Source: Aureispira sp. CCB-QB1
GTDB taxonomy: Bacteria; Bacteroidota; Bacteroidia; Chitinophagales; Saprospiraceae
Direction of reading: 5' to 3'
DNA length: 51,732 nucleotides
Assembly (NCBI RefSeq): GCF_000724545.1
Contig: NZ_JHBV01000012.1
Span: 1 to 51,732, forward strand
Numbering within the stretch: position 1 is the stretch's first letter; each line of letters begins with the position of its first letter. Shown piece after piece: positions 22,490-51,336 of this stretch. The translations under genes were made by a program, and so were the position numbers. Under the pieces are notes generated by a model. It saw only the letters and a list, made by a program, of their open reading frames with translations, had not been told where the DNA came from and did not search any database.

Positions 22490-24180
22490 CAAACTGCTAA
22501 TTTTTCTTTCAACCACATCATTTCTAAATCTTTGGCAATGTAAGCTGCTGTATCTATAGCCCCCTTTTCTTCTGCTTGCGCCAGCAATTCTTCTTTTGAC
22601 AATTCCAAAGAAGCCTTATAAGGATTAATTTTCATATTTTGAGGCGTGCCTTTCTGCTCTGCCAATACTCTTCGATAGATTTCTGCTGCCATTTGCTCTA
22701 GAATTTCTAAATTCTCTTTGCACTGCGCAATCAAGCCTTCTACAGAATGCTGTATTTCTAAATCTAGGTGCATTTTTTTCAAGAATGGAATATCAAAGAA
22801 ATCAATAAAAAAATTGATGTAAGGTTCGTTGCTACACACCGCCCATTGTCTAAAAAACTGCTGAAGTTGACTATTTAATTTCCCTAAACGAGTCCCCAAG
22901 GAATTTCGACTCGTAAACAAAGCTCGTAGTACTTCCAAGTTGATATAACCTTTATTCGTAAACAAGAGTGTTGGGATTCCCCAATATACTCCCCAGTCCC
23001 ACAATACTTTACTAACCATTACTTGCGTATTGCCAAACAACTCATATTGTTGATTATAAATAGGCACCCAACTATCAAAAAATGCGGCATGCACACGTTC
23101 GTAAATAATAGATCGAGAAGCAACATCCTCCCCTCGATAATCTCTTAAAATCAAATCCGACATCCAAGTATTTCCAATAGAAATAAAATCCGTTCCAGGA
23201 GAATAAAATGGATCTAAGAATGCCCCTGCTTCTCCTACCACTCCCCATTTTTCTGTAGAGTAGAAACGTCCTGAATGATGCGAGTAATGCTTCAATATTC
23301 TAAAATCAATTACATCTTCTCGGTACGATTCCAATTTTTGAGCACACAGTGGTTCATTTTTCTGTAACCACTCCATTGCCTTATCCAACTTATTAAATTC
23401 TGAGAAATCATGAAATCTAGGATCGGCAACAATTCCCACACTTGTATTACCAGATACCAATGGAATTAACCAAACCCAATAGCCAGTTCCCATAAAATGA
23501 ATCGTCCCCAAACGCCTCAAACCTTTTGGCAATTTATTTGCCCATTGCTCATTATTAGACCAATCATTTACATCAACTTCTCCTTTTACTCGAAACCAAA
23601 CAGCATTGATGTTATGCTCTAACGGTTTTTCAAAACCTAGTTTGCGTTTCAATAAACCAACTCTCCCTGTAGCATCAGAGACCCATCGACCAGTCACTTC
23701 GTAATTTTGACCTTCTTTGGAATAGGTTACTGTATGTCCTTCTATTTCGTTCAAATCTACGGCTTTGATTCTTGCTCCCAAGATTACATCTACCCTCATA
23801 TTTAGTAGACGTTTGGTGAGTTCATTTTCAAAGATACCTCGATCAATTTGGTGGCTAGGTACTGGTAACGTACCTTTAGCTCCTAACTCTACACGTTGGT
23901 CAATTTGTTCTTTGATTTGTGGGGAAAAATAAAACCTCAACCCAATCTTTGGCAATTGGTATTCGTCTAAATAATCCTTCAGTCCTAACACTTCTCTTAA
24001 GTAATAGGTGCCTAGTTCTACCGTAGACTCTCCCACTTTATGAGCCGAATTAGGGGCTTCCTTTTTTCGCATCTCAAGCACAGCTATACGAATCTGAGGT
24101 TCTTCTTGCTTTAACTGCAAGGCCAATGTTAAACCAGCCAATCCTCCTCCTAATATTACAACATCATATTGGTTATTCAT
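22489..24180 (-). CDS. Flavin-dependent halogenase-like oxidoreductase
   Basis: 563 residues. An FAD-binding Rossmann motif opens the protein (YDVVILGGGLAGLTLAL), followed by KVGESTVELG, and WVWLIPLVSG, which fits the WxWxIP halogenase motif. The second FAD motif is GEAGAFLDPFYSPGTD. C-terminal ~120 residues are helical. Enzymes of this group halogenate or hydroxylate aromatic or ACP-bound substrates and need a separate flavin reductase, not found in the window. In a resorcinol-type cluster it might chlorinate or hydroxylate the aromatic head group (inference). Whether it is a true halogenase needs the active-site Lys position, which I cannot align confidently. Confidence 0.75.
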   Translation of the reverse strand: MNNQYDVVILGGGLAGLTLALQLKQEEPQIRIAVLEMRKKEAPNSAHKVGESTVELGTYYLREVLGLKDYLDEYQLPKIGLRFYFSPQIKEQIDQRVELGAKGTLPVPSHQIDRGIFENELTKRLLNMRVDVILGARIKAVDLNEIEGHTVTYSKEGQNYEVTGRWVSDATGRVGLLKRKLGFEKPLEHNINAVWFRVKGEVDVNDWSNNEQWANKLPKGLRRLGTIHFMGTGYWVWLIPLVSGNTSVGIVADPRFHDFSEFNKLDKAMEWLQKNEPLCAQKLESYREDVIDFRILKHYSHHSGRFYSTEKWGVVGEAGAFLDPFYSPGTDFISIGNTWMSDLILRDYRGEDVASRSIIYERVHAAFFDSWVPIYNQQYELFGNTQVMVSKVLWDWGVYWGIPTLLFTNKGYINLEVLRALFTSRNSLGTRLGKLNSQLQQFFRQWAVCSNEPYINFFIDFFDIPFLKKMHLDLEIQHSVEGLIAQCKENLEILEQMAAEIYRRVLAEQKGTPQNMKINPYKASLELSKEELLAQAEEKGAIDTAAYIAKDLEMMWLKEKLAV

Positions 24181-31827: not shown

Positions 31828-32775
31828 TTATGCTTCCCCTGTTTTAAACGGAAAAGCCTTAAAGTGTTGCTTGGCTCGTTTTTCTCCAATCAACTCCACC
31901 ATTTGCTCGTATTCTGACTGCTCGTCAAGCGGTCTAACTTCCATATCCTCATAATTATCCAAATACTCTTGATTTAATAAATGAATAGAAGGAAAAACCA
32001 TTTTAGATTCAGGCTTCAAATCCCAATCAATCAAGTTATTGTACTCCGCTACCGCCGAACAAATTTTGCTATCATAACGCCCATAGATGCGTTCACAATG
32101 CATGGTCATCTTATCGCCATGACTAATATCTACATGGTGCGTAATATCGGGAGAATTTCCCATAGGACGAGCTTCTGGTGCAATTTCAGACTTTAATTTT
32201 AGGTTAATTTCTGCTTTAACAGGTTCTCCTTTCAAGGAAAAAAGAACAATCTTAACCGTACAACTTTCTAATGTTCCCTTAAAAACCGCTGGTTTTTTCT
32301 CCTTATTGTCGTTTCCCGTATCTGGGAAAATATTTCCCCAAACCAATTTTAAATAAGGTGGTCCATGCACTTCTGGTTCGTATCCATACACCGTATTTTG
32401 CAACAAATCCAAGTGCTTTCGAATAGAAGGTGTTTTTTTATCATCTAAAAAAAATTGCTCCTTCATCGAGTCTTTAACAGGTACAATTCCCGTTGCATCG
32501 GCATAGAACTTAAAGTCCATTACCATTTTTTGATACCCTGAGAATACAGCTGGAGGACCTCCTGATGAGCCTGGGGTAGCTAACAAACTATTATTTTTCC
32601 CTTTTTTATTATTACTACCTTCTGGGTCTTCAATCCCAAAACTATACTCTACATTTTCTGGATTCATTTGCACCTCAAAAGAATTTACTTTCTCATCCGT
32701 ACAAGTTAATTTTTTATGTGAGGTAATGGTTAAACGAGAAATCCCATCGTCACTACCAGAAAAAAAACTGCCCAT
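31828..32775 (-). CDS. CIS-tube/LysM adaptor protein (Afp7-like)
   Basis: 315 residues from the ATG at 32775 (MGSFFSGSDDGIS). A longer frame begins with GTG at 32838, but that is only 12 nt from a terminator hairpin, leaving no room for a promoter. The N-terminal domain (about 10-215) fits the CIS_tube family (NSFEVQMNPENVEYSFG; GTLESCTVKIVLFSLKGEPV; KAEINLKLKSE). The C-terminal part looks like a divergent LysM module (ISHGDKMTMHCERIYGRYD; YNNLIDWDLKPESKMVFPS). In Afp/PVC particles the equivalent protein connects tube and spike in the baseplate. A 189-nt gap separates it from gp25. Confidence 0.75.
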   Translation of the reverse strand: MGSFFSGSDDGISRLTITSHKKLTCTDEKVNSFEVQMNPENVEYSFGIEDPEGSNNKKGKNNSLLATPGSSGGPPAVFSGYQKMVMDFKFYADATGIVPVKDSMKEQFFLDDKKTPSIRKHLDLLQNTVYGYEPEVHGPPYLKLVWGNIFPDTGNDNKEKKPAVFKGTLESCTVKIVLFSLKGEPVKAEINLKLKSEIAPEARPMGNSPDITHHVDISHGDKMTMHCERIYGRYDSKICSAVAEYNNLIDWDLKPESKMVFPSIHLLNQEYLDNYEDMEVRPLDEQSEYEQMVELIGEKRAKQHFKAFPFKTGEA

Positions 32776-32850
32776 ATTGCCTTTAAATTTGAGTTCATAT
32801 AAATAATAACAGAATTTATTTGCATCCAAACTCTGCACTTATAAAAATAA

Positions 32851-32880
32851 AAAAACCCTTTGGCATTTCCAAAGGGTTTT
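32851..32880 (-). terminator. Terminator between the small-paralogue cassette and the adaptor gene
   Basis: CCCTTTGG (32856-32863) pairs perfectly with CCAAAGGG (32869-32876) around a 5-nt loop, with A5 on the left and T4 on the right, so it can work in both directions. It lies 24 nt after the stop of the small gene ending at 32904. Confidence 0.8.
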
Positions 32881-32903
32881 CATTATTAATCTTTTATTTT
32901 TAT

Positions 32904-33209
32904 TTATAATGGATTTGTCGGTAAATTATACGCTGCTGCTGCTGCTGCTGTTCCATCTTCTGCCGTACCAAAATAAAACTTAGATCGCCCTGTTTCTGTA
33001 TCCCATGCTAGTATATGCCAAAAAATTTCATTATTTTGTTCTACTGTAGTTGAAAGTTGCATCATATACTTCCCAGTACTACCATAAGTAGTCTTTGGTT
33101 CATAATTAGCCTGAGCGGGGCTAGCCGAGCGAATTAAAAAAGCAAAGGCAAAAATAATCGCTGCTGTACCAAACAAACTGGCACATATGCGTTGTGTTAT
33201 CTTATCCAT
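32904..33209 (-). CDS. Small exported protein, tandem paralogue 3
   Basis: 101 residues. An N-terminal hydrophobic segment (about 10-28, SLFGTAAIIFAFAFLIRSA) ends in SPAQA-NYEP, a likely signal peptidase I site. The mature ~65 residues contain TGKYMMQLSTT, WHILAWDTETGRSKFYFG, then an in-frame (GCT)6 tract coding six alanines (32932-32949). Two close relatives precede it. The shared motif is TYG-TGKYMM...W-IL-WDTETG-SKFY. I do not recognise the family. It is the last gene before a terminator and lies in the cassette between the PAAR and adaptor genes. Confidence 0.7.
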   Translation of the reverse strand: MDKITQRICASLFGTAAIIFAFAFLIRSASPAQANYEPKTTYGSTGKYMMQLSTTVEQNNEIFWHILAWDTETGRSKFYFGTAEDGTAAAAAAYNLPTNPL

Positions 33210-33306
33210 GATGTATTTTTTTTAGATTTTAATGAAATGTTATTTAAGAACGACTAATATATGACAAATTGTATACCAATCCATTTTTTTTATTATGTCT
33301 TTTCTT

Positions 33307-33335
33307 GACAAACAACTTAAATCAAGTTGTTTGTC
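33307..33335. repeat. Perfect 12-bp hairpin between paralogues 2 and 3
   Basis: GACAAACAACTT (33307-33318) and AAGTTGTTTGTC (33324-33335) pair perfectly around the loop AAATC. No T-tract follows on either strand. It may be an mRNA processing or attenuation structure that tunes relative expression of the two genes. Confidence 0.55.
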
Positions 33336-33364
33336 GATTGTACATCTACATTATGTGGTATAAA

Positions 33365-33652
33365 CTATAAAGGTCTTGTTGGTAATTGGTATTCACTACT
33401 ACCTGGTCTCATAGATGATTCACTACTCACAAAGTAAAACTTTGAATTACCTGTTTCTGTATCCCATACTAAGATGTACCAATAAGGATCTCCATTATAT
33501 ACCATAGACTGTAAACTCATCATATACTTCCCAGTTCCATAGGTAGTTTGTGGTTCATGATTCGCTTGAACAGGACTAAAAGATCGAATTAAGAAAGCAA
33601 AAGCGAAAATAATCGCTGCTATGCCCAAAAGGCGTTGTGTTAGTTTATCCAT
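33365..33652 (-). CDS. Small exported protein, tandem paralogue 2
   Basis: 95 residues from the ATG at 33652, chosen because MDKLTQR matches MDKITQR of paralogue 3 and the upstream bases of the two genes are nearly identical; a longer open frame to 33748 would run into paralogue 1. Layout: hydrophobic segment (GIAAIIFAFAFLIRSF), cleavage-like SPVQA-NHEP, then TTYGTGKYMMSLQSM and WYILVWDTETGNSKFYF, ending LPTRPL. No cysteines. The function is unknown; small size, export signal and triplication suggest an envelope or secreted accessory protein. Confidence 0.7.
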   Translation of the reverse strand: MDKLTQRLLGIAAIIFAFAFLIRSFSPVQANHEPQTTYGTGKYMMSLQSMVYNGDPYWYILVWDTETGNSKFYFVSSESSMRPGSSEYQLPTRPL

Positions 33653-33704
33653 GATGTATTTCTTTTCAATTTTTACGTTCCAAAGATTTTCTGAATTTTT
33701 ATTA

Positions 33705-34019
33705 CTACAACGGGCTAGCAGGAATTTGATATTTCCCATTGGCAGCATTCATACCTTCGCCTTTGTTGCCATAATAAAACTTTGAACGACCTGTTTCTGT
33801 ATCCCATACTAAAATATACCAAGACATTTGCGTTTCTGACATCTCCGCCTGCAAACTCATCATATACTTCCCAGTTCCATAAGTAGTCTTTGGTTCATGA
33901 TTCGCTTGAACAGGGCTAGCCGAATATACCAATGCCGCCGCTCCAAACAATAGTAGCGCCACAGCAGAAAAAACCAAAGCAATTCCTTTGCATTGATCTA
34001 AAAATGTTGTCTCTTTCAT
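33705..34019 (-). CDS. Small exported protein, tandem paralogue 1
   Basis: 104 residues. The N-terminus differs from the other two (MKETTFLDQCKGIALVFSAV) but the cleavage region SPVQA-NHEPKTTYGTGKY and the core WYILVWDTETGRSKFYYGN are nearly identical to paralogue 2. DNA identity is also high across the central block (compare 33500-33560 with 33850-33910), so the duplication is fairly recent. It follows the ~756-residue unknown gene by 97 nt... in transcription order it comes after that gene? No: transcription runs from high to low coordinates, so the order is unknown protein, paralogue 1, 2, 3. Confidence 0.7.
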   Translation of the reverse strand: MKETTFLDQCKGIALVFSAVALLLFGAAALVYSASPVQANHEPKTTYGTGKYMMSLQAEMSETQMSWYILVWDTETGRSKFYYGNKGEGMNAANGKYQIPASPL

Positions 34020-34116
34020 TGTTAATTTTGTTTTAGTGTTTCAATAAAATTCAATATAAAAATTTAAAAGCAGAAGTCTAAAAAGTACATTTGCCTTCTG
34101 TCCTGAAATTTAACTC

Positions 34117-36387
34117 CTATTTTTTCCAATGCAAGGTTTTCCCTGTTGTCATTTGAAGTTGCGCAGGAATAGCCCCTTTCGCATCTGGAGAAGTAATCTG
34201 CCCTTCTAAGACATTAACATCAACTTCAATGGTTCCTTCTGAGGTAAAGTTAAAAGAATAAAGATGTCCTTTTACAACAAGGAAACTGGTATCGACTCCT
34301 CGCTCCTCTGTGATTTCTTGCGTGGTGCTAGTAGAACGATTATAGTTAGAAGAATTAAATGTTCCTTTTGTTTTTTCTGTTCCTTCTTCCTTTCCCCAAT
34401 CATAAGCATAATGCCCTGACACTTCTCCTTCCACCAAATAGCTAATAGGATTAAATTTCTTTAATACATTAGGAATCCACTTAGGAGCTTGGAGCGAACC
34501 TTCTACCCCCAAGGTATTATTCGTCACATCGATATCTACCTCGGTCTCTGAACTTTCAGAACCTAACTCGATTCCGTAACTGCTACCCGTTTCAGAACCT
34601 CTAGTCACCGAGCCTTTCGCTTTAGAAAGGAGAATTTTAAATTCAAAATCACAACTAATCCCTTCTTTTCCATGCTTTATTGGGCTTAAAGCATAAAAAT
34701 CTGTTGCTTGAAACTCCAAACCATTTTTATTCGCCACCGTCAAAGAAATATCCGTAGGCATTGCATAAGCACGTTCATTGAGTGACTCTATTTTTGTAAA
34801 AATAGTGCTATTAAGCACCGAGCCATCTTTTAGTTTAATGACCAAGTTTAAGGCTTCTCCCTTTGCTAATAAAGGTTTTATGCTAAGCTTAGGACGTTTG
34901 CTGTCCAAGAAAATTGCTTTGATAGAGTCTATTGGCGCATTACTGCGTAGTTGATTGCTAATATTCTCTATCTGCTGTTTTTCCTCAAAGCTCAAACTAT
35001 TAAATAAAGAACGTACCGAACCACCATTCATAGTCACTTGATACAAAGCACTTTGCCATGCTTCGCTGACATCCGTACGACTAGGAAATGGACTACCAAT
35101 CGCTTGAATAGATTGTTTTAATACAGGATAAAAGATACTCAATTCTTTGTTGGAAAATAATTTTTCGAACTTTTTTAATAGTTTATTGGCATCAAATTGC
35201 TGTGTTGGCGGCAAATGCAAGCTATCTAATGCCCCGCTGACTTCAGCAGCCCACTCTACATATTCTCCAATAAAGTTATAGGGACTTGTACCGTCTGAAG
35301 ACGTAATAATTGCCGTTTTTAAATCATCAAAAGAGGGCATCACCTGCGATTCTTGCCAACTGTTGTAAATATACTCTTCTGGTGTATGAATCGAAAGAAG
35401 GGATTTGGACATTGCATTGACAAAATCTTTCACTTGAGCATCTTCCTTCAGCTCTGCCATTATATTTACCCGCAGTTCTTTTGACAGCAATGGTTGTGTC
35501 TTTTGCCAATCGTTGCAAGCCTCTACCAAAGCCGTAAAAAAAGCAGCTTTGGACATATTGCAAATAGAATCTGTTTTGGTATCATGGCTAATAATGCTTG
35601 AACAGATTTTTTTCTGTTCTGCCTTCCAGGCTGCAAACGCTTTTCGAAATTCTTTCTTTTCTTGTTCTTCTTCTTTTTTATTTAATTCTTCCTCCTTACT
35701 TAACTCTTTATTCAAATTAAAAGCAACATCATCAATAGCATGAACCACACAAGTTTTTATACTGTGCTGCAACCCTCCAAAATCTCCTCGTAGATTAGAA
35801 GCAAAGATTGCTGCTAGATTCAATTCATCTGTTGAATTTTCTTGGTTGTATGTGGTTTGATAATTGCTATAATGCTTTAATAAATAGCTCTTATTATTAA
35901 ATTTATTGAGAATGGCACTAAGTACTTTTTGTGTGTTGTCTACGGTCGTGCAAGCCGAAATATTTCCCTGAAACAACTCCATAAATTTTTGCCCCAAAGG
36001 CGTATGCGGTTTTAATTTACCTAAGTTTGTTTTCAATTTTTCTGTATCAATACTATACGCTCCATTGTTGACCAATTGAGGGTCAAAAAGTTGAAAAGGA
36101 TCTTTAGATTGAAGCAATTGACTTAGAATTTCACTGGCAACTTTTAGAAACTCTTTCTTTCCTATATCATCAGGCTCTACTGTAAAAGAGTAATTGCTCA
36201 TTCCTTTGATTTCAGGTGTAATTGTTTTTAGGTAAGCTATATCTGCTTCATACTGTTTTAATTCCTGCTCAGAAAATACAGTCCTCAAATCTATATTATT
36301 GAGCTTACAGTGATTCTGAATCCGCTTTACTTGTTGTATTAGATGTGTTAAAGGTTCTTCTAATGCTTTGTTCTCTGTATCTTTCAT
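34117..36387 (-). CDS. Unknown large protein in the injection-system locus; candidate cargo or accessory factor
   Basis: 756 residues from the ATG at 36387 (MKDTENKALEEPL). An upstream ATG (36459) would add 24 residues rich in Phe/Ile coming from A/T runs; I think this is leader, but it could be a membrane anchor. The N-terminal ~520 residues are helical, with a charged coiled stretch (KELSKEEELNKKEEEQEKKE) near 250. The C-terminal ~220 residues are beta-rich and full of Ser, Thr, Glu and Gly (GSETGSSYGIELGSESSETE; FNSSNYNRSTSTTQEITEE), a composition seen in some pore-forming and surface proteins. No family is recognised. It starts a cassette with a terminator upstream (36651) and downstream (32851), lying where eCIS loci often carry cargo. 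Effector function is inference only. Confidence 0.7.
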   Translation of the reverse strand: MKDTENKALEEPLTHLIQQVKRIQNHCKLNNIDLRTVFSEQELKQYEADIAYLKTITPEIKGMSNYSFTVEPDDIGKKEFLKVASEILSQLLQSKDPFQLFDPQLVNNGAYSIDTEKLKTNLGKLKPHTPLGQKFMELFQGNISACTTVDNTQKVLSAILNKFNNKSYLLKHYSNYQTTYNQENSTDELNLAAIFASNLRGDFGGLQHSIKTCVVHAIDDVAFNLNKELSKEEELNKKEEEQEKKEFRKAFAAWKAEQKKICSSIISHDTKTDSICNMSKAAFFTALVEACNDWQKTQPLLSKELRVNIMAELKEDAQVKDFVNAMSKSLLSIHTPEEYIYNSWQESQVMPSFDDLKTAIITSSDGTSPYNFIGEYVEWAAEVSGALDSLHLPPTQQFDANKLLKKFEKLFSNKELSIFYPVLKQSIQAIGSPFPSRTDVSEAWQSALYQVTMNGGSVRSLFNSLSFEEKQQIENISNQLRSNAPIDSIKAIFLDSKRPKLSIKPLLAKGEALNLVIKLKDGSVLNSTIFTKIESLNERAYAMPTDISLTVANKNGLEFQATDFYALSPIKHGKEGISCDFEFKILLSKAKGSVTRGSETGSSYGIELGSESSETEVDIDVTNNTLGVEGSLQAPKWIPNVLKKFNPISYLVEGEVSGHYAYDWGKEEGTEKTKGTFNSSNYNRSTSTTQEITEERGVDTSFLVVKGHLYSFNFTSEGTIEVDVNVLEGQITSPDAKGAIPAQLQMTTGKTLHWKK

Positions 36388-36506
36388 GTTCTTAGAGTTA
36401 AAAAAAATTAAAAAAAAGGATATCACCAAGGCAATATTTCCATACAATACAGTAACCATTACGTTGATTTAATAGAGATGAAAAAATAAGCTTGTCGTTA
36501 AAGGCA

Positions 36507-36514
36507 CTAAGATA
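36507..36514 (-). promoter_or_regulatory. Predicted -7 element of the cassette
   Basis: On the minus strand TATCTTAG, identical to the element proposed before the second sigma operon (4658-4665). It lies about 120 nt upstream of the preferred start at 36387. Confidence 0.35.
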
Positions 36515-36590
36515 GAAAAAAAAACATTCAAAAAAAACAGCAAAAAACAGATATTAATAAATATATTTTATATTCATTTACAATTAGTTA

Positions 36591-36635
36591 CACTTCGATA
36601 CATTTCGATACATTTCGATACATTTCGATACATTT
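36591..36635. repeat. Tandem 10-bp repeat upstream of the cassette
   Basis: Units of the form CATTTCGATA: one variant (CACTTCGATA), three exact copies, then a half-matching CATTTGCGCT. The period equals one turn of B-DNA. It lies between the PAAR-gene terminator and the cassette promoter candidate, about 80-130 bp upstream of that -7 element. Confidence 0.85.
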
Positions 36636-36650
36636 GCGCTTTAGATCAAT

Positions 36651-36687
36651 AAAAAATCCTCTTTTAAGCCAAGCCTAAAAGAGGATT
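36651..36687 (-). terminator. Terminator after the PAAR gene
   Basis: AATCCTCTTTTA (36655-36666) pairs perfectly over 12 bp with TAAAAGAGGATT (36676-36687) around a 9-nt loop. On the minus strand a T-run follows (A-run 36651-36656). It ends the main structural operon. Confidence 0.88.
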
Positions 36688-36712
36688 CTAAATTTACACG
36701 AAACGTTTATAT

Positions 36713-37003
36713 TTAGCCTATCATTACAGTAAATTCACCCAAAACGATAGAACCACCATGTGCACAAGTATCTCCCAACCGAGCAGCAGGCATACCACCT
36801 ATTAAAACAGTCGTAGACCCCATTGCAATCGTATCTGGGGGACCGGTACACACACACATATCTCCAACCAATGCAGCAGGTAATTTACCAATCATAACCG
36901 TTGGGCAACCAGGTCCTGAAATTGGACCACCAACATGAGGTACTGTTCCTGTAACCATTGGGCAAACGTGCATATCTGTTAATCTTGATGCTGGAGGCGC
37001 CAT
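36713..37003 (-). CDS. PAAR-domain spike tip
   Basis: 96 residues, a single PAAR domain with nothing fused to it. The repeat pattern is clear: MAPPASRLTDMHVCPMVTG, GPISGPGCPTVMIGKLPAA, VGDMCVCTGPPDTIAMGST and TVLIGGMPAARLGDTCAHGG. The His/Cys residues fit metal binding at the tip. It would cap the VgrG trimer as the piercing point. It follows the VgrG-like gene by 71 nt and is the last gene before a strong terminator. Equivalent to Afp10 or T6SS PAAR proteins. Confidence 0.95.
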   Translation of the reverse strand: MAPPASRLTDMHVCPMVTGTVPHVGGPISGPGCPTVMIGKLPAALVGDMCVCTGPPDTIAMGSTTVLIGGMPAARLGDTCAHGGSIVLGEFTVMIG

Positions 37004-37074
37004 AGTTTTATTTATTTTTTATTAAAGAATATTTTTTCATTGATACTTATAATACACTGTTTCAAAACAGATGA

Positions 37075-38949
37075 TTAGTTAATCATAACCATCCCCCCTT
37101 TAACCGTTAACATTCCACCACCATCTACTGTTCCCATTCCAGAACCTTTGACCTCAAACTGAGCACCTTCTGCTTTAAATGCAGCGGTTCCCTTTGCCTC
37201 AAAGTTTGTTTGTGCTTCAAACTTAACATTCATCCCTTTTCCAGTAATATCATTTGTTGCTTCCATAGCAATACCTTTTCCTGCTGTAATTTTGATATCT
37301 CCAGTAACATCAATCGTCAAATCTTGATCTACCGTCATCGTTACTCCCTTGGAATCCAACAAGATATTATTTTTATTAACAGGGTCATCAATTGTGATGG
37401 TATCTTTATCATCATCAATTTGAATCATCATTTTATCCTCTGTAAATACCTTGTATATATTCTTACCTGGTTCATCAAAAAACTCCATGCGCAACTTTCC
37501 TTTATTGAAAGAAAGCGCTTTCATATGATTCACATCAGTAGGGTCGTGCGATTCTTCAGTTGTAATTTTTCGCTTACTACTATACATAGAACCAAGTATA
37601 ACAGGGTATGTTGGGTCATTATCAAAGAAACCTAAGACTACCTCATCACCTACTTCGGGAAAAATAACCATTCCACAATCTTCAGTAGCGTAGAGCTGTG
37701 AGACTCTAGCCCAAACACCTTCACCTTCTAGATTGTCAATAATTGGGATATTGACCAAGACTCTATATTCTCCATCAGGGTCATCATTAACCTGTATAAC
37801 AACACCATGTTGTAACCCATTAATCGCAGGCAAAGCACCACCTGCCCCCAAAGGGCTAGCAGAAGGATATTTTTCTAAATGTGGTTTTTCAGGTAAGCCC
37901 AACTCCACTTCTGTCAACCATTGAGCATTTTTAATAGTATGGCGTACTTTTCCTATATAGGCATCTCCATTAAAACGAGAACCAAAGCCAACTAATTCTA
38001 CCACTTTCCCAACCTCTATTTTCTCAGATCCAACAAACTTAACTCGACCTCGAATTCTTGACAGATGACCACGTTGATAAACCGAGTCTGCCCAAGATTG
38101 AATAAAATCCTTTGTTATAGGTGCTGACGAATGCACCAACTCTTTTGGCTTTAAGACACTTGATAATTTAGCACTGTCAATGTCACCTTGTTTATTCGTT
38201 GTTGGTTTTGTTCCTGCTGTATTTTCAATAGCTTGTGTTGTATGATCCCAAAAATTTGCTTGAACTTCTTCATATTGGTGTGAAGAATGAATTTTCAAGT
38301 CCATTTCCATCAAATCAACACCATAAGTAATTGAAATATCTGTTTTTTCGGATACAGTTGGTTTTTTTATATTAATCTCTCCATCGTTAACAATGGTAAC
38401 CAAGCTATTCGCATCCGCTCTAGCTTGAATAAAGTCCCAATTGGTACAATAATATTGTATCAATTTTTTGTGTGTTGCCTTAGTTGCTTCTACAGTTGCT
38501 TTGGATTTGATACCAGAATCTTTAATTATTGCAGAAATGATATCAGAGTCTTTTTGGTCATAAAAAATCATATTTCTACGCCCAACAGTTAATGCCAATG
38601 CTTCATCTCGACAAATTAGTGTCAAACAAGAAGAACCATTTCGATTCAATTTAATCCCATGCTCTACGATTAAGCCTTTGTAGATACTTTCCATCGTTGA
38701 CGAAGGGTCATGAGATACTTTAATTTCTATTTCAGCCCCTGGTTCAAACATACTTTCTTCACTTTGAGGAAAGGTTTGCTCTCTAGAATCGCCATCAAAA
38801 ATAACCACTCTAGCATAAGGTATCTTATTAATTTCCTTAACAACCTCTGTCTCTAACACAAGCATAGCATCAGGAAGTTTCGTACCATCTACTGTAACTT
38901 CGAGGTTAATAACCCCGCTACCGAGTTTTTTTATAGGAGAATCAGCCAT
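37075..38949 (-). CDS. VgrG-like spike protein (Afp8 type)
   Basis: 624 residues. The gp27-like hub covers about 1-365 (ARVVIFDGDSREQTFPQSEE; KGLIVEHGIKLNRNGSSCLT; YYCTNWDFIQARADANSLVT). The gp5-like OB fold follows (GVVIQVNDDPDGEYRVLVNI; GVWARVSQLYATEDCGMVIF; PEVGDEVVLGFFDNDPTYPV). The end is a beta-helix needle of short repeats rich in Thr, Asp, Lys and Gly (LTIDVTGDIKITAGKG; FEAKGTAAFKAEGAQFEVKG). It is a complete, unfused spike without an effector domain. The DUF5908 and tube-like genes lie upstream and the PAAR gene downstream, the standard order. Confidence 0.93.
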   Translation of the reverse strand: MADSPIKKLGSGVINLEVTVDGTKLPDAMLVLETEVVKEINKIPYARVVIFDGDSREQTFPQSEESMFEPGAEIEIKVSHDPSSTMESIYKGLIVEHGIKLNRNGSSCLTLICRDEALALTVGRRNMIFYDQKDSDIISAIIKDSGIKSKATVEATKATHKKLIQYYCTNWDFIQARADANSLVTIVNDGEINIKKPTVSEKTDISITYGVDLMEMDLKIHSSHQYEEVQANFWDHTTQAIENTAGTKPTTNKQGDIDSAKLSSVLKPKELVHSSAPITKDFIQSWADSVYQRGHLSRIRGRVKFVGSEKIEVGKVVELVGFGSRFNGDAYIGKVRHTIKNAQWLTEVELGLPEKPHLEKYPSASPLGAGGALPAINGLQHGVVIQVNDDPDGEYRVLVNIPIIDNLEGEGVWARVSQLYATEDCGMVIFPEVGDEVVLGFFDNDPTYPVILGSMYSSKRKITTEESHDPTDVNHMKALSFNKGKLRMEFFDEPGKNIYKVFTEDKMMIQIDDDKDTITIDDPVNKNNILLDSKGVTMTVDQDLTIDVTGDIKITAGKGIAMEATNDITGKGMNVKFEAQTNFEAKGTAAFKAEGAQFEVKGSGMGTVDGGGMLTVKGGMVMIN

Positions 38950-39091
38950 TCTATTTTTATAATAAATATTAGTTGCGTTTTATTTTAAGTACTAATAATA
39001 GTCCTCAAGTATTTAAACGCTAAAAAAATTAAACCTTATTTATAAATCTTTGTGCCAATATCATTGCCATTTCGATCTACCACAAAACAAT

Positions 39092-39274
39092 TTAAGGTTT
39101 CAATTCGTATTCTATCATATCTCGAACTTTATCCAAGCACTCTTGAATTAGTTCCTCTTTTTCTAATTTAGACATTGCACCACCGCCACCACCTTCGGTA
39201 GCATCTTTAGAGCCGCCTTTACTTTTTTTATTAATTTTTGTATTAAACAGCAATTTTTTAATTGAAATAGACAT
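39092..39274 (-). CDS. DUF5908 family small protein
   Basis: 60 residues. The N-terminus MSISIKKLLFNTKINKK and the C-terminal helix KLEKEELIQECLDKVRDMIE are the conserved ends of DUF5908, a small eCIS-linked family of Bacteroidota that occupies the Afp6-like place beside the spike gene. Between them is a GGSKDATEGGGGG linker, longer than I expect for the family. Its role in assembly is not established; the helix may bind a baseplate or spike component. Confidence 0.8.
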   Translation of the reverse strand: MSISIKKLLFNTKINKKSKGGSKDATEGGGGGAMSKLEKEELIQECLDKVRDMIEYELKP

Positions 39275-39302
39275 AGTAGTATATATTTATTTAGATAAAA
39301 AA

Positions 39303-39908
39303 TTAGGATGGAGGAATTTCTAAACGTTCAATTTCTGTATACTTAAACTTGATGGTTTCCTTAATTGGTGCATCTCCAGATGTTGAGCTCAAATCAGAAA
39401 TTTCCCAACTTGTTGGAAAAGCCTCGTGAATCAAAAATCCTGCTACAGGAAAAGAGGAAGGACCAATCGGTAATGGATTTTGAATCATAGGGTGATAGAT
39501 ACAAATCATAATATCTTTCACTTCTATTTTCTCTTCCCAAGTTTTAGCAGAGGACATTGTCTTTTGGCACCATTCACTAGTAGGATCTAATGAGAATCCC
39601 ATTACTCCAATATGACGAGGTCTCAAATAGCGTTGCAGTACCAACTCATCGTTATCAATTTTATCAAAAGAAGGTCTTGGAGTAGACCAACCTGCTTCAT
39701 TTAAAGGAGTTGTTGCAAAACTCATTTTTAATCCTTGTACATCTGAAAAAGCAGTAGCCATTGGGTCTAATGCTTGCAATGCTAAAGAAGCAGAAATTGA
39801 CATCGTCTTAAACGAGAAGGAATCTGATCTTTCAAAAAATAAGACTTCAAAGAAAAAACTCGGAATCGGTTCATTCATGAAGCCAACTATATTCGATAGT
39901 AAGTCCAT
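39303..39908 (-). CDS. Tube-like (gp19 superfamily) protein, third copy
   Basis: 201 residues. It has an N-terminal extension (MDLLSNIVGFMNEPIPSFFF) and then the tube-fold pattern: FSDVQGLKMSFATTPLNEAG, LVLQRYLRPRHIG, IYHPMIQNPLP and FLIHEAFPTSWEISDLSS ending in IKFKYTEIERLEI. It is distant from the two tube proteins upstream and resembles the tube-initiator type tail proteins that connect tube and hub in Afp-like particles. It is 28 nt from the DUF5908 gene. Confidence 0.72.
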   Translation of the reverse strand: MDLLSNIVGFMNEPIPSFFFEVLFFERSDSFSFKTMSISASLALQALDPMATAFSDVQGLKMSFATTPLNEAGWSTPRPSFDKIDNDELVLQRYLRPRHIGVMGFSLDPTSEWCQKTMSSAKTWEEKIEVKDIMICIYHPMIQNPLPIGPSSFPVAGFLIHEAFPTSWEISDLSSTSGDAPIKETIKFKYTEIERLEIPPS

Positions 39909-40040
39909 AACTTATTGATTGTTAATCGTATCTTTTAGAAGCTGCTTATCAATAGAATACTTGATGTTATCAGCTATTTGCATTTCTTCTAATCAAAAAA
40001 CGCTATTGATTATAGGAAATGAATGGATGCTATTATTAGA

Positions 40041-40787
40041 TTAGAAAATTTTAGATACAGCACCACCAATGGCACCACCGATTGCGCCTCCTACAGCACC
40101 GCCTACGATACTTCCAATACCGCCTAAGACAGAACCAAGAAGACCTGAACCAGCATTCATTGAAAAAGATTGATACGTTAGCTCTACTTCTTCAATAGCT
40201 ATTTCACTCTCTGCCTCACCGTCTAAATTAGAGGGTGTAAATTTGGTCACAAAAGCCTTTTCTAGCGTCCAAGTAAACATATGTGTTCGTCCTCCTCCTG
40301 TTAGTTCTGACAAATTGATGGTGACAGTTCTCATGTCGCTAAACATAGAGCCTTGCGATACATTAGAAAACCAATCAAAAAGATCTGTATCTCCCGAAAA
40401 CATACCTTTTTTTAAGGTTACGGGATCATAAGAAGTTAAGGTAGGTCGACTTTGTTCATAAAATTTGTTTGAGTTGCCATCCCTAAACTTCATGGTTGCG
40501 ATTGTGGCTCCCATTCCATCCATTCCTTGAAAGGACACATTGCCCGTAAAGCCTCCTATGTTGATTTCAAAAGCAAATTTGGTTAATGGCCATTCATTGT
40601 GTGACAAATTTCCTCCTGTATTTACCTGCTTAATTTGGTTTTGCCCAACAGCAGAAATTTGTAGATGAGACAAATCTCCAATCTTGCTAACAGGATTTGT
40701 ATTCGTAGGATTTAAATGAGATAGGTCTCCCACTCCATCAGCATTTAAGTGGGGGTTGTTATTACTATTAGATACTTTTTTTGCCAT
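40041..40787 (-). CDS. Tube protein 2 with N-terminal repeats and glycine-zipper tail
   Basis: 248 residues from the ATG at 40787; the frame stays open 20 codons upstream but without a good start. The centre (about 64-210) is clearly a gp19-type tube domain homologous to tube 1 (EWPLTKFAFEINIGGF; VTLKKGMFSGDTDLFDWF; KFTPSNLDGEAESEIAIEEV). Two additions are odd. The N-terminus has three copies of a GDLSHL motif (20-25, 37-42, GNLSH at 59-63). The last ~37 residues are a hydrophobic glycine-rich tail (GSVLGGIGSIVGGAVGGAIG continuing with the same pattern to SKIF). Tube 1 ends right after the tube fold. The tail could line the tube or enter membranes (inference). Confidence 0.85.
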   Translation of the reverse strand: MAKKVSNSNNNPHLNADGVGDLSHLNPTNTNPVSKIGDLSHLQISAVGQNQIKQVNTGGNLSHNEWPLTKFAFEINIGGFTGNVSFQGMDGMGATIATMKFRDGNSNKFYEQSRPTLTSYDPVTLKKGMFSGDTDLFDWFSNVSQGSMFSDMRTVTINLSELTGGGRTHMFTWTLEKAFVTKFTPSNLDGEAESEIAIEEVELTYQSFSMNAGSGLLGSVLGGIGSIVGGAVGGAIGGAIGGAVSKIF

Positions 40788-40929
40788 ATTATAGGGAATT
40801 TCAAAACATTGAAAACAAAGAAAATGATATTCAAATGTCAAATACAAACCTAATTTAGGAGGGCATTCAAATTAGAAAAATCAAGTAACTCTAAAGTACA
40901 AAACTTATTCGAATAATACAAATAAAAAA

Positions 40930-40963
40930 TTGACCTAGCAGAAAATGGATTCTACTAGGTCAA
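40930..40963 (-). terminator. Internal terminator between tube 1 and tube 2
   Basis: Arms 40930-40943 and 40950-40963 pair over 14 bp with one mismatch around a 6-nt loop, and a T-run follows on the minus strand (A-run 40924-40929). It probably lets only part of the transcripts continue, so sheath and tube 1 are made in excess over the baseplate. Confidence 0.8.
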
Positions 40964-41138
40964 TAAATTATTCTTATATGTATTGATTATCTACGATTAA
41001 TGCTGTTTTTAGGAAAACATTATAAATAATCAAGGAACAATAATTTTTATAAAATTAACTTAAGATTAAAATTGCATTTTAAAGTTAACATATGCCTATT
41101 GATTGCATACTGAATAACTTTTGCAATATTAATTATTC

Positions 41139-41621
41139 TTAAGATCCTTTTTCTAGAACGAAAGATTCGATAGCAACCTCAAGTTCTTCGAAAGCAACTT
41201 CAGAATCTGCTTCAGCATCCAAGCTAGTTGGAGTAAATTTAACAGGGAAAGCACCATAAAGTGTCCAAGTCATCATTACGTCACTTGCTTCATCCAAAAG
41301 CTCAATCAAGATTTCTTTACGCTCGTTACGGTTAGTTGTGTGCTCCCAAGCGTACATGTGCCACCAATCTTTTAAGTTAGCATCACCCAAAAATTCACCT
41401 TTCTTGAAAGTAACGTTACTGAATGAAACCATACCTGGTCTCTTAGATTTGAAAAGGAAATCAGAGTTCCCCATGCGGTACTCTATAGCAGTTATTTCAG
41501 ACTCTAGTCCTTCAACAGTTTGGAAACCTAATTCAGGAAGTCCGTCGATAGTTACACGGAAAGAGAATTTAACTAATGGCCATTCGAATGGATTGACCGA
41601 AGTTCCACTATAATCACTCAT
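41139..41621 (-). CDS. Tube protein 1 (Afp1/gp19 type)
   Basis: 160 residues, typical for the inner-tube subunit. The fold-defining parts are present: FEWPLVKFSFRVTIDGLPE, VEGLESEITAIEYRMGNS, FSNVTFKKGEFLGD and LYGAFPVKFTPTSLDAEAD, ending VAIESFVLEKGS. It would polymerise into the Hcp-like tube inside the sheath. It follows the sheath gene by 94 nt, and a terminator sits downstream, consistent with high-level expression of this pair. Confidence 0.93.
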   Translation of the reverse strand: MSDYSGTSVNPFEWPLVKFSFRVTIDGLPELGFQTVEGLESEITAIEYRMGNSDFLFKSKRPGMVSFSNVTFKKGEFLGDANLKDWWHMYAWEHTTNRNERKEILIELLDEASDVMMTWTLYGAFPVKFTPTSLDAEADSEVAFEELEVAIESFVLEKGS

Positions 41622-41715
41622 AATATATAAAGTTTAAATCTTTTTTTTTAAATATTTTTTACTAAAACCAAATCATGCTTTGATGTGTTCGACTTCTAAT
41701 TTAATTGACTAGAGT

Positions 41716-43209
41716 CTATTCGCCACCAGGCATTTTTTGTTGGAAAGAGATTACAATAAACTCGGCAGGGCGAGAGATTGCTACTTTAACAGATACTTTC
41801 ATGTAACCATCTAGTACATCTTGAGGAGTCATTGTAGTTCCTAGACCACAATCTACAGCATAAGCTTCTGCTTCGCTATTTCCTACTAATGCACCACTTT
41901 GCCATTGATTACGTAAGAAGTTAGAAATCATTGTTCTAACAGCCAACCAAGTGTTGCTATCATTTGGACGGAACACATAAGGCTCACAAGCAAACTTGAT
42001 AGATTGTTCTAACATAATCATTGTACGACGTACGTTGATGTATCTCCAGTCTCCACTGTTTCCATCAAGAGTACGAGCACCCCATACTAAAGTACCTTTA
42101 CCAACAAATGGACGGATTGCATTAACTGCTTTACCGCTCAATGGTAAGTTCAAATTTTCTTGCTCCTCAGCATTAACATTTACTGTAGGACCAGTAACAG
42201 CCGATACACTTACATTTGCAGGTGCTTTGTGAACTCCCACAGAGCTATCTACCAATGCATAGATACCAGCAACAGCACCAGATGGAGGAAGAACGTTAAG
42301 AGCCTCCTTCATTTGGCCTAAAATATCATTATAGATAGGACTAACTGCTTTCAACAAGTTGCTTACAGCAGTAGCGTTAGCATCATCATCAGAAATCTTA
42401 GCGATCTCTTCTTTGATCATGTCACCTTTTTCTTCTTTTACATAACCAGCAGCTACATTTTCGTCAACTTCACTGTTCAAGATGTCGATAAGCCCATCAG
42501 CATTGCTAATGTTTTTGTAGCTCAAGTCGTCAGCACTTACAACAGTAGCGTTCAACCAAGGGTAGTAAGCTGCACCAAAATCCAAGAAATTTCCACCATA
42601 TGCTGTACGAGCAGCAGTTACAACATCGTCATCCAACAATGTTCTAGCTTGGTGACCATTCCATACGTCCAAAATTGCAAAACGGCTACGAGTATCCGCA
42701 CCACAATGTTTGATCATTGCTTGTTGAACAGAAGCACAATCTCCTTCCTCTAGTAATACTGCATCTGGAATTACAACCAATGTAGGCTCTTGCTCTTTCA
42801 ACAAAGCAGTAATACCACCTCCATTTTCTGCACCGATCAAAGCAGAAGCTTTCACACCACCAGTATAGTTACCTACTGATACGATGTAACAAGCACCACC
42901 TCCGTTTGCAAAGAATAATTGCAAGCTGCGGAACAAGTTGTAGTTAGTTTCTCCTTCTACGTCTAAGCTGTAGTTATTGTCATCAGCTTCGATTGTAAAT
43001 TGAGTTGTTGGCGCTCCTCCAAAAAAGCTAATGTACTCCACCATAGAAGTAATTCGCATTGGAACATTCGTCAAGTCTTTTTTACCAGCTGCTGCTTTTT
43101 GAGTATACCCAATAAAAGCAGGTACTGCAGTTGCTACAGAAACTACAGAGTTGGAAAAGGCACTTTTCTCTTCGATATACACACCGGGTGTTGCATATTG
43201 TTTTGCCAT
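41716..43209 (-). CDS. Contractile sheath protein
   Basis: 497 residues. The start QYATPGVYIEEKSAFSNSVV and PAFIGYTQ are the classic N-terminal sheath signature; the C-terminal domain has GTLVWGARTLDGNSGDWRYI, NVRRTMIMLEQSIKFACEPY and the end strand PAEFIVISFQQKMPGGE. This is the subtilisin-like phage-sheath fold found in phage tails, eCIS and T6SS-like particles. Only one sheath gene is present, while Afp and PVC carry three, so this is the simple one-sheath layout. Contraction drives the tube out. Confidence 0.96.
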   Translation of the reverse strand: MAKQYATPGVYIEEKSAFSNSVVSVATAVPAFIGYTQKAAAGKKDLTNVPMRITSMVEYISFFGGAPTTQFTIEADDNNYSLDVEGETNYNLFRSLQLFFANGGGACYIVSVGNYTGGVKASALIGAENGGGITALLKEQEPTLVVIPDAVLLEEGDCASVQQAMIKHCGADTRSRFAILDVWNGHQARTLLDDDVVTAARTAYGGNFLDFGAAYYPWLNATVVSADDLSYKNISNADGLIDILNSEVDENVAAGYVKEEKGDMIKEEIAKISDDDANATAVSNLLKAVSPIYNDILGQMKEALNVLPPSGAVAGIYALVDSSVGVHKAPANVSVSAVTGPTVNVNAEEQENLNLPLSGKAVNAIRPFVGKGTLVWGARTLDGNSGDWRYINVRRTMIMLEQSIKFACEPYVFRPNDSNTWLAVRTMISNFLRNQWQSGALVGNSEAEAYAVDCGLGTTMTPQDVLDGYMKVSVKVAISRPAEFIVISFQQKMPGGE

Positions 43210-43301
43210 GATTAAATTTGTTTAAATTTAGTTGATTTAATAAGTTTTAAATTCTAGTATTACATTTATATACAATTACATTATATCATTTGTAATACTC
43301 C

Positions 43302-44429
43302 CTACAAATATACTATTAATTCTGAATAAACCTCAGATTTGTCTAATAAATTTACTTTTAAGTTCCCAAGTGCCGATGCACAGGGCAATTGAACAATCCA
43401 CTCTACGCCGCTTTTGCCTCTTTTTGTCTTTAATTTGAACTTTTCTAGCTGTTTTTCTTTAAAGGCAATTGGTTCCATTGTCCAAATATGAAATACTTCT
43501 TTTCCTCCGTCCAAAGCGACCGTTTCTGGCTCCTCAAAAGACATTGGAACATAACCTTCGGCTCTATTGGTATCATAGATTTCAGGTTCTCGATGCATCT
43601 GGTCATTGCCATTTTCTATCAAAACATATTGCCAACGAACAGAACGAGCACCAAATCGAATATTATACACTTGTGATACCAAGCCTCCATCATCATCAAA
43701 CAAAGCATAATCACTAAAATCATCTTTGTCAATAATAATATCAATCACTCCAAAGATTTTTTTCAATCCAGTGTACAAGTAAAAGGATTTTTCTTCCAGA
43801 CCGTCAATAAGAATAGAGTATTTGCCCTCGGGTTCTCCCAATAAAGAAATTTCACAAGAGACAGCTCCATCTTCTAAAATTTCTTCAAATACAATTTCTT
43901 CCAAAGCGTTCATTACCTGTACTTCGGTTCCATATTGTTCTTCGTCAAAATCGTAAATAATGATAGAACTACAAATTTCTACCTTATCTTCTGGTGTTAC
44001 GTATTGATTTAGAGATAAGTTCTTATGTTCTGTATCGTCTTTTTCTAAACTCTTATTATTAAAATAAAAGATGGTGTTATCATCAAACTCAAACGGCAGA
44101 TCGGTATAGTTCAAAAATCGCTGATCAACAACATCTAACAAAATAGAAAGATGAACTGGTTTTTCAATATCGGCAATTGGTGTATAAGAATCTGTCGAGG
44201 CATAGCCCAACATAAAACCACTGGCCATAGATCGGTATTGTAGTCCATTACGTGCCAATTCTTTCAGGGTTCCTTCTGTTGGTGTCAATCTAACTTTTCC
44301 TGCGGGAAAGACTCCTTCTTCAAAAAAATCATGCTTAATTTGAACATCAAGAAGCTCTTGAAACTGTGCCAACAGTTCCAATTTCATTTGAGGAAATTTG
44401 CTTTTTTTATTTCTTTTAATTTTAGCCAT
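43302..44429 (-). CDS. Unknown protein of the injection-system operon
   Basis: 375 residues, soluble. A basic N-terminus (MAKIKRNKKSKFPQMKLELL) leads to an acidic, beta-rich body (IIIYDFDEEQYGTEVQVMNA; LLGEPEGKYSILIDGLEEKS; YNIRFGARSVRWQYVLIENG). I do not recognise the family by name. It lies between the DUF4255 gene and the sheath gene (62 and 92 nt), so it is almost certainly a conserved part of this eCIS lineage, possibly a tail-terminator partner or an assembly factor. No toxin motif was seen. Confidence 0.65.
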   Translation of the reverse strand: MAKIKRNKKSKFPQMKLELLAQFQELLDVQIKHDFFEEGVFPAGKVRLTPTEGTLKELARNGLQYRSMASGFMLGYASTDSYTPIADIEKPVHLSILLDVVDQRFLNYTDLPFEFDDNTIFYFNNKSLEKDDTEHKNLSLNQYVTPEDKVEICSSIIIYDFDEEQYGTEVQVMNALEEIVFEEILEDGAVSCEISLLGEPEGKYSILIDGLEEKSFYLYTGLKKIFGVIDIIIDKDDFSDYALFDDDGGLVSQVYNIRFGARSVRWQYVLIENGNDQMHREPEIYDTNRAEGYVPMSFEEPETVALDGGKEVFHIWTMEPIAFKEKQLEKFKLKTKRGKSGVEWIVQLPCASALGNLKVNLLDKSEVYSELIVYL

Positions 44430-44491
44430 TAGATTTCTCTATTTTATATGCTTCTTTGTTAATAAACATTACCATTATCAAGCAAAAAAAT

Positions 44492-45052
44492 TTATGTTTT
44501 TTTGATAACAGGAATATCTGGAAAGATAAGATCATGTTTGATGGGCAGTGTCTTTATTTTATATACCACAGAGGGTAAATATTTAGACCCCATAATTCCC
44601 CAAAAATTCCCCAAGTCTCTTGTTTCCATTGTAATTAACTCTGCTTGAAGACGATCAACGATTCCGTTGATTGCAGGCGTATTTTGGTTGTTAAAACTTC
44701 CTGCTCTAGATTGAAAAAAAGCAATGACAGAAGTTATAAATTTAAGTCCCTCCAAATAATTTTCACTTGTAAAATAAGCAGAAAACAAAACAGTTATATT
44801 AATATTAATGGGTGGATTAAATTTTTGAAAACTTCCTCTTCCCGTCTGTTTGTACCCCCCCACATTACTTTGGCTTTTATCCATTTCGATATTGGCCAAG
44901 GTCATAACAATTTTATCGGGTTCTTGAACAGCCACACTACCATCTAAATTGACAATGTTAGACATGACAACCTTTTCTTCTGTAATATTATGTTTGGATT
45001 GCAAAAAACGATTAAGTTCCCCTGCAATAGCTGCAATTGTGTCGTGAATCAT
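44492..45052 (-). CDS. DUF4255 tail-terminator/cap protein (Pvc16/Afp16 type)
   Basis: 186 residues. DUF4255 pattern: MIHDTIAAIAGELNRFLQSK, VMTLANIEMDKSQSN, PPININITVLFSAYFTSENY, LKFITSVIAFFQSRAGSFNN and a C-terminal WGIMGSKYLPSVVYKIKTLP. Proteins of this family cap the tube and sheath at the top of eCIS particles. It is the first gene of the structural operon; 121 nt separate it from a small membrane-protein gene upstream. Confidence 0.9.
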   Translation of the reverse strand: MIHDTIAAIAGELNRFLQSKHNITEEKVVMSNIVNLDGSVAVQEPDKIVMTLANIEMDKSQSNVGGYKQTGRGSFQKFNPPININITVLFSAYFTSENYLEGLKFITSVIAFFQSRAGSFNNQNTPAINGIVDRLQAELITMETRDLGNFWGIMGSKYLPSVVYKIKTLPIKHDLIFPDIPVIKKT

Positions 45053-45173
45053 TAGATATTAAAACTAATTAGAAAATAGTTCAGCTATTCTTTTTGTCGT
45101 TTCTATTCTTTTGTCGCAAGACAAACCGAACTCCCCTGAATCTAGTTGAACTAATTTAATAGAAATTTCAGAT

Positions 45174-45431
45174 TTACTCCTCTTCTTCTTCCGTTTCAGG
45201 TGCTGTCAAGGTTTTCAAAGCCATTGATACAAAACGGATAATATAGATTCCAACAAAAGAAGTTAGATATCCTATTAAATATAACCAAAAGATATAGTTC
45301 TTTCGAATCTCTGGTAAATTAATTATTTCATTTGTCGTTCCGAAAAACCACAAAAACACAATCCCTAATGGAATAGCTGCAATTAGACCAACAAACAGCC
45401 AAATAAATTCTCGGGCAATTACCTTTCCCAT
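45174..45431 (-). CDS. Small membrane protein with two helices
   Basis: 85 residues. Two hydrophobic helices (about 9-30, WLFVGLIAAIPLGIVFLWFF, and 47-70, IFWLYLIGYLTSFVGIYIIR) with a short loop, ending in an acidic tail (TAPETEEEEE). No family recognised. It lies between the GH18-like gene and the injection-system operon on the same strand and could belong to either; it might anchor or regulate the envelope proteins encoded beside it (inference). Confidence 0.65.
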   Translation of the reverse strand: MGKVIAREFIWLFVGLIAAIPLGIVFLWFFGTTNEIINLPEIRKNYIFWLYLIGYLTSFVGIYIIRFVSMALKTLTAPETEEEEE

Positions 45432-45554
45432 TGTTATCCTTTTTTATTTAAAAATAGTGGTTCTTTTCTCGACTTGATCGATTTCAAAGTTTTTTCTCAA
45501 CACGCTCGGTAATTCGTATTCTGAAAAACAAACTCCTTGTGTTTTTGCAATGTA

Positions 45555-47732: not shown

Positions 47733-47784
47733 ATTCGGTATTAATATAGTATGGGCTTCTATGTGCTAGCCTCAATTCGACTAA

Positions 47785-49647: not shown

Positions 49648-49716
49648 ATCGTATTTTTTAAATGAATACTCTTTGGGATTAATTGTTAAAAAGAAATCAA
49701 GCGTTATGGCAACATT

Positions 49717-51272: not shown

Positions 51273-51336
51273 CACATTAAGATATGTTTAATTTTTGTTG
51301 AATAACTTGCACGTTGAAGCTTGTCAAGGCATCCAT

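Follow-up and report, generated by a model that had tools for sequence, protein, structure and literature searches.

Arrays of small immunity genes are known beside the contractile weapons of type VI secretion systems (T6SS), and some of them change fast at the effector-binding face, according to the accessible portions of two reports (PMC5361080, PMC12247911). The arrays of Vibrio cholerae are described there as strain-variable and spread by recombination (PMC5361080), and in the orphan immunity proteins of Bacteroidales (rAID) the change is located at the predicted binding face (PMC12247911). An excess of non-synonymous change at that face is seen in rAID and is not universal among such arrays. 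For extracellular contractile injection systems (eCIS), the portions available state that accessory toxin genes are common in the loci and that it is an intriguing mystery why most antibacterial eCIS toxins have no immunity gene next to them (Geller et al., PMC8213781), and that the cargos of AlgoCIS carry DUF4157 and are disordered in their N-terminal part (PMC8894135). In this study, a block of four genes was analyzed in a contractile injection cluster of Aureispira sp. CCB-QB1 (genome G000, 7.37 Mb, family Saprospiraceae), within a 51,732-nucleotide stretch of contig 12 (hereafter, the window). The block is situated between the PAAR gene and a LysM/tube gene and consists of one large gene (P780) and three small genes (s1, s2, and s3). 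We propose, with a probability of a little under 40%, that it is an exported, strain-variable recognition module of the Saprospiraceae contractile injection system, made up of immunity-like small proteins and a large exported partner.

As in the T6SS immunity arrays, insofar as the accessible parts of PMC5361080 and PMC12247911 describe them, the block contains several small, strain-variable paralogues adjoining the genes of a contractile weapon. Unlike those arrays, the copies here represent a single family with a fixed 5′ half, an apparently exchanged C-terminal part, and signal-peptide-like N-termini. P780 resembles the eCIS cargos and toxins, as presented in the same portions of PMC8213781 and PMC8894135, in being a large accessory gene in an injection cluster; it differs from them in that it has no DUF4157, carries an export-type N-terminus, has most of its known relatives outside the cluster, and is surrounded by structural genes instead of occupying the 3′ end. 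The LysM/tube gene that adjoins the block is itself of the tube-initiator kind (CIS_tube); it lies outside the block, and one of its loops shares the hypervariability. Literature searches on Aureispira and Saprospira injection systems, hypervariability, eCIS cargo, and orphan immunity revealed no such module in the titles and abstract openings of the matches listed.

The window was compared with its counterpart in a strain of the same species (G127), and the window itself served as the background for strain divergence. The two sequences were 98.96% identical over 51,464 bp, and they differed outside the block by 0.42% (positions 1000-32400) and 0.24% (37000-51500). Eight or more mismatches were found in 10 of 505 100-bp segments, all located in 32501-33900 or 35601-35700. 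The block and one loop of the neighboring LysM gene were the sole hypervariable part of the window within the species. When each small gene was divided into a 5′ part, which extends to the GKYMM motif and includes the signal peptide, and a cassette, which corresponds to the C-terminal ca. 50 codons, the differences in the 5′ part and the cassette were 2/166 nt (1.2%) and 20/136 nt (14.7%) in s1, 5/137 nt (3.7%) and 67/151 nt (44.4%) in s2, and 0/146 nt and 58/154 nt (37.7%) in s3, respectively. The borders of the cassettes were sharp, and identity was regained near the stop codon or, in s1, somewhat earlier. The variable loop of the LysM gene (codons ca. 68-112; 27/308 nt in 32460-32775) is embedded in a nearly identical protein and is separated from s3 by a near-identical stretch containing a terminator. 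In P780, codons ca. 240-330 were variable within the species (18/271 nt).

The s2 cassettes of the two strains shared 55% nucleotide identity, compared with 66% between the paralogous s2 and s3 cassettes of G127, although the 5′ parts of s2 were 98% identical. Some paralogous cassettes of a single genome thus resemble each other more closely than the orthologous s2 cassettes do, and cassette replacement rather than slow drift is suggested. The synonymous divergence (dS) of the mature parts was 0.44-1.22, and it adjoins almost none; replacement by recombination is therefore the likely cause of the divergence. An assembly fault is disfavored because both alleles are open and retain the core motif. 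Besides the three small genes, G000 contained one stop-ridden match of 33 residues (E 0.07) and no further copy able to serve as a cassette donor. In favor of a diversity-generating retroelement that rewrites the C-terminal parts of the small genes, the variation is limited to a short, sharply bordered C-terminal stretch, and one distant reverse-transcriptase-domain match is present in G127 (C1:2390876). However, no reverse transcriptase was detected in G000 (PF00078, E 1e-5), the differences in s2 occurred at every codon position (21/19/32), 22 of the 72 differences in s2 had no A on either side, and dS was high in the mature parts. The combination of a reverse transcriptase and adenine-directed change was thus not found, and this explanation is very improbable.

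All three small proteins have signal-peptide-like N-termini, in line with the preliminary description of this locus, which was made from the DNA alone and had ascribed signal peptides to them. The end of the signal peptide is presumably an AxA-type site, leaving a mature part of approximately 65 residues. The C-termini differ within a fixed frame: the mean entropy over eight small proteins was 0.16 bits for GKYMM, 1.88 for the first variable segment, 0.41 for the core, 1.61 for the second variable segment, and 0.75 for the tail. The constant core WYILVWDTETGRSKFYYGN, flanked by the two hypervariable segments, may fold as beta strands, and a fixed frame bearing two variable segments has the look of binding proteins under changing demand. 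The small-protein family was found in nine of 298 genomes of the family Saprospiraceae at E ≤ 0.001, two of which (G064 and G264) were matched through a short motif in PBP1C-like proteins, and in two of 395 genomes of a phylum sample (the window genome and one weak match in a 249-aa frame). Matches in L097 and L098 were set aside on account of a shared short motif; we take these proteins to be PBP1C-like.

The small genes are linked to the LysM gene. This gene was present in 13 of the 298 family genomes, and in six of them (G000, G127, G201, G248, G076, and G291) a small gene is located directly upstream of it. G201 has two small genes and both terminators, with no large gene between PAAR and LysM, and G248, G076, and G291 have one small gene each. 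In the latter three genomes, the LysM gene and the sheath gene are on separate contigs; the injection clusters of G248 and G076 are possibly split across sites. The sheath gave one match per genome in all nine genomes searched, and in G260, which consists of two contigs and has no small-protein match, the sheath and LysM genes are 1.29 Mb apart on one contig. Members of the P780 family occurred in five of the six genomes with the linkage and in none of the other seven. Because the genomes are related, these counts are not independent.

In G021 and G282, PAAR is followed directly by LysM, and the whole block is absent from clusters that are otherwise collinear in the stretches compared. The comparison with relatives that the preliminary description had called for thus reveals a block that is absent from two genomes, reduced in G201, and hypervariable within the species. 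The terminator between s3 and LysM was near-identical in G201 and similar in sequence in G248 (0/1000 shuffles scored as well in each case). In G021, where no small gene remains between PAAR and LysM, it is decayed, with 44/50 nt identical and mismatches in the stem (0/1000 shuffles); it was not found in G076 or G282, in which 43 and 97 of 1000 shuffles scored as well. Judging from the copies in G021, G201, and G248, the ancestor of the genus probably already had the small genes and this terminator, which G021 would have lost; the large gene was probably inserted later, in this species. The view of the block as a single inserted unit therefore does not hold in evolutionary terms, since the small genes and the terminator appear older and travel with LysM, and the P780 gene was apparently added later. 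As an alternative to the recognition module, the exported proteins of the block might be envelope parts of a cell-attached machine operating in the manner of T6SS subtype iv, aiding docking or envelope spanning. A statement in PMC11566945, in the portion available, credits Aureispira sp. CCB-QB1 with a T6SS subtype iv that has a large trans-envelope complex, and the small genes go with the LysM gene. On the other hand, otherwise collinear clusters lack the block entirely, and the two strains share gp25 and baseplate J at 100% identity, in contrast to a difference of 15-44% in the cassettes; such a role is improbable.

P780 most likely comprises 780 aa, starting at the first ATG. A large unassigned protein at this place had been recognized previously; its proposed length of 756 aa, however, corresponds to an internal ATG (codon 25), and the hydrophobic N-terminus was consequently missed. 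The first ATG of several family members is preceded by the usual A/T-rich context. P780 has a composition of helical type up to about residue 540 and a more Ser/Thr-rich C-terminus beyond it; a helical N-terminal part and a Ser/Thr/Glu-rich beta C-terminus had been noted before. Its hydrophobic segment spans residues 9-20, and no lipobox-like cysteine was seen by eye after it. When the N-termini were judged by hydropathy, all nine family members had a hydrophobic N-terminus of export type, with a best 12-residue mean of 1.97 to 3.12, and the N-terminal peak of each member exceeded its maximum beyond residue 40. Neither the sorting domain of the type IX secretion system (T9SS; Por_Secre_tail) nor DUF4157 or any other Pfam family above the cut-off was found in the nine members. 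When solved structures were searched by sequence, the P780 family and the small proteins yielded only weak, implausible matches, and the C-terminal part of P780 yielded none. A pore-forming toxin was considered for the Ser/Thr-rich C-terminus, an idea that was dropped because no family search backs it.

The nine members occupy eight distinct loci. The window and G127 share one of these with twin copies, G201 has four, G248 has one, and G076 has two, one of which is cut short near a contig end. A first search detected the family in three of 199 family genomes, and a profile search detected it in six of 298, including the marginal G222; as the latter scored the best three candidates per genome, it displayed three of the four copies in G201. 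Only the window genome was positive in the phylum sample (1/395), and no relatives were found in plasmids and phages. A single-protein pattern scan of 84,980 genomes reported no relative, and it is considered insensitive because the known members in G201, G248, and G076 were also missed. The match in G222 (E 6.4e-4, a 141-aa open reading frame (ORF)) and a third, weak match in G076 (C160, E 0.007) were excluded from the family. A small helical gene upstream of P780 relatives (172 aa in L005 and 92 aa in L023; 21% identity over 47 residues, with E 0.005 from a very small set) was also examined as a candidate partner, and it was dropped because no comparable similarity was found upstream of the remaining members.

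An injection cluster surrounds two of the eight loci, namely, the PAAR-LysM interval here and the gp25-baseplate J interval of G201 (L023:10806-13181). No other protein of the window cluster was detected by tblastn in the stretches of 8.8-19.5 kb around the remaining six; as a control, the cluster stretch L023 of G201 gave 14 of the 23 query proteins. The member in the G201 cluster shares 15% identity with P780 (alignment A1) and has a 91%-identical sister elsewhere in its genome (L055:10319-12727). The C-terminal halves of these two copies are nearly identical, and strong divergence is confined to codons 0-60 and 240-360, which suggests gene conversion between the paralogues.

It had been proposed that P780 is cargo of the injection system; the tube would be filled with it in the cytoplasm before injection, and the hydrophobic N-terminus would be a loading or membrane-insertion segment. 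In favor of this proposal, two species of the genus each have a family member within the injection cluster, the two members differing widely and occupying different places, and accessory toxin genes are frequent in eCIS loci (PMC8213781, in the part available). However, an export-type N-terminus is present in all of the collected relatives, six of the eight distinct loci have no cluster protein nearby, and P780 lacks DUF4157 and any other Pfam domain, whereas the AlgoCIS cargos have DUF4157 (PMC8894135, likewise in part). Known cargo or toxin domains such as DUF4157 are a frequent, not a universal, mark of eCIS cargo. Tube loading of P780 is less likely than the recognition module proposed here, and we regard it as unlikely.

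According to the recognition module that we favor, s1-s3 would be secreted via a cleavable signal peptide, and their C-terminal parts would be exchanged among strains by recombination against a constant background of promoter, signal peptide, and terminators. The small proteins would most likely bind specifically in the periplasm or on the surface, akin to the kin-protecting immunity proteins of a contractile weapon, and P780 would be a large, separately inserted, exported partner that possibly contacts them and is a candidate effector or toxin-like member. Several results weigh against this proposal. The within-species comparison involves two strains only. The non-synonymous divergence (dN), calculated over each whole mature part rather than mapped to a binding face, was below dS in s1 (0.16/0.44), s2 (0.39/1.22), and s3 (0.30/0.75), so that positive selection is not demonstrated and an exchange of old alleles, rather than fresh positive selection, is suggested. 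G291 has a small gene adjacent to LysM and no match to the P780 family, and in G282 a distant relative of the small proteins occurs away from LysM, which has none beside it. A large effector carrying its own export signal would not suit tube loading. Furthermore, the small-protein relatives L088, L089, and L090, and L096, L104, and L105 of G291, have no injection protein of the window nearby, some of these loci having been viewed over 2-4 kb; relatives in two Flavobacteriales metagenome-assembled genomes and one of Saprospiraceae had none in the 3.8-20.3 kb covered. These loci indicate that the small-protein family is not dedicated to the injection system.

The same loci are in accord with surface or recognition proteins that have nothing to do with toxin immunity, that are displayed outside, and that are diversified by phages, by grazers, or for prey binding. 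Exported-type proteins with two hypervariable segments around a fixed core, together with a large partner of exported type, would suit such a role. It is opposed by the linkage upstream of LysM in six of the 13 genomes, three of which have the sheath on another contig, which points to the injection machine, and by the missing T9SS sorting domain in the P780 family; we consider it rather unlikely.

If the block is an injection-associated recognition module, it bears on how cells of this lineage that carry contractile injection systems avoid harming themselves and recognize others, and strong C-terminal differences between near-identical strains would be expected if the small proteins decide the recognition of partner, rival, or prey. 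Being hypervariable, sharply bordered, and linked to LysM, the putatively exported module offers concrete genes and residues for testing. A further-reaching version, which we regard as doubtful, is a locus-borne, exchangeable recognition repertoire: the specificity of a predatory injection machine for kin or prey would be set by exported mini-proteins with swapped variable segments, by the large exported partner, and by a variable loop of the tube initiator that matches them.

The features of the block are listed in Table 1. Pfam and protein family searches of the window proteins located the injection cluster on the minus strand, in the order GH18-type proteins, a Pvc16-type protein, sheath, three tube proteins, spike, PAAR, the block, CIS_tube/LysM, gp25, and baseplate J; sheath, tube, spike, PAAR, tube initiator, gp25, and baseplate J are thus clustered in the window, and the neighbors named in the preliminary description are confirmed. 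Its interpretation is partly supported overall. Its observation is confirmed: the bracketing of the block by terminators is real, and the four genes indeed have no recognized family. None of them reached the cut-off for Pfam or NCBIfam, no match to PADLOC was obtained at E 0.1, and PHROGs gave a single weak match (s3, E 0.044). The best stray match for P780 was NCBIfam ProA (E 0.00036), with 18 bits against a cut-off of 1500.

Table 1. Positions of the features of the block and its borders in the window.
Feature	Position	Strand	Remarks
Intrinsic terminator after PAAR	36653..36689	-	upstream border of block; 17 pairs, z -5.28
10-bp tandem repeat AAATGTATCG	36596..36635	-	4 copies in G000, 3 in G127; upstream of P780 promoter region
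Candidate Bacteroidota-type -7 element TATCTTAG	36507..36514	-	upstream of large gene
P780, 780 aa	34117..36459	-	ORF from first ATG; hydrophobic N-terminus
s1, 104-aa exported-type small protein	33705..34019	-	C-terminal cassette 33705-33853
s2, 95-aa exported-type small protein	33365..33652	-	C-terminal cassette 33365-33515
s3, 101-aa exported-type small protein	32904..33209	-	C-terminal cassette 32904-33060
Intrinsic terminator between s3 and LysM	32851..32881	-	13 pairs, z -5.25
LysM/CIS_tube gene (tube-initiator type)	31828..32838 (listed); probable start 32775	-	Pfam CIS_tube E 1.1e-23

Both terminators fold far better than shuffled sequences (0/200 shuffles as good), and 16 terminator-like sites were counted in 12 kb versus 7.6 ± 2.8 in shuffles. 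The counterpart of the terminator after PAAR is at the equivalent position in G201 (L023, 16385-16419). A promoter candidate had been reported earlier inside the block; the one listed here, upstream of the large gene, fits five of the six fixed positions of TAnnTTTG, which we take to be the Bacteroidota-type -7 consensus. Matches to sigma-70-type promoters were at chance level (34 versus 40.6 expected). For s2, the listed ORF of 127 aa begins further upstream than the most likely start. For the LysM gene, codon 22 of the listed ORF is the probable start, since the alignments with most relatives begin at codons 22-25. Its LysM label (Alg7/Afp7 type) was adopted from the preliminary description and is presumptive; Pfam LysM gave no match on this gene.

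The 10-bp repeat could confer phase-variable expression on the P780 gene; poly-T runs near it also vary in length between G000 and G127. In G248 (L028:11870-16531) and G076 (L030:118-8476), LysM and the small gene are followed by very long ORFs of 1017 and 1928 aa, respectively, neither of which had a Pfam match at E 0.01. Downstream of the injection genes of the window, positions 22489-24180 encode a 563-aa FAD-dependent, halogenase-like oxidoreductase (NCBIfam CmlS-type, E 3.9e-17, below the cut-off). Finally, the segments 1078-1609 and 4774-5305 each match the G127 counterpart of the other (70.7% over 532 bp) and form a diverged duplicate pair.

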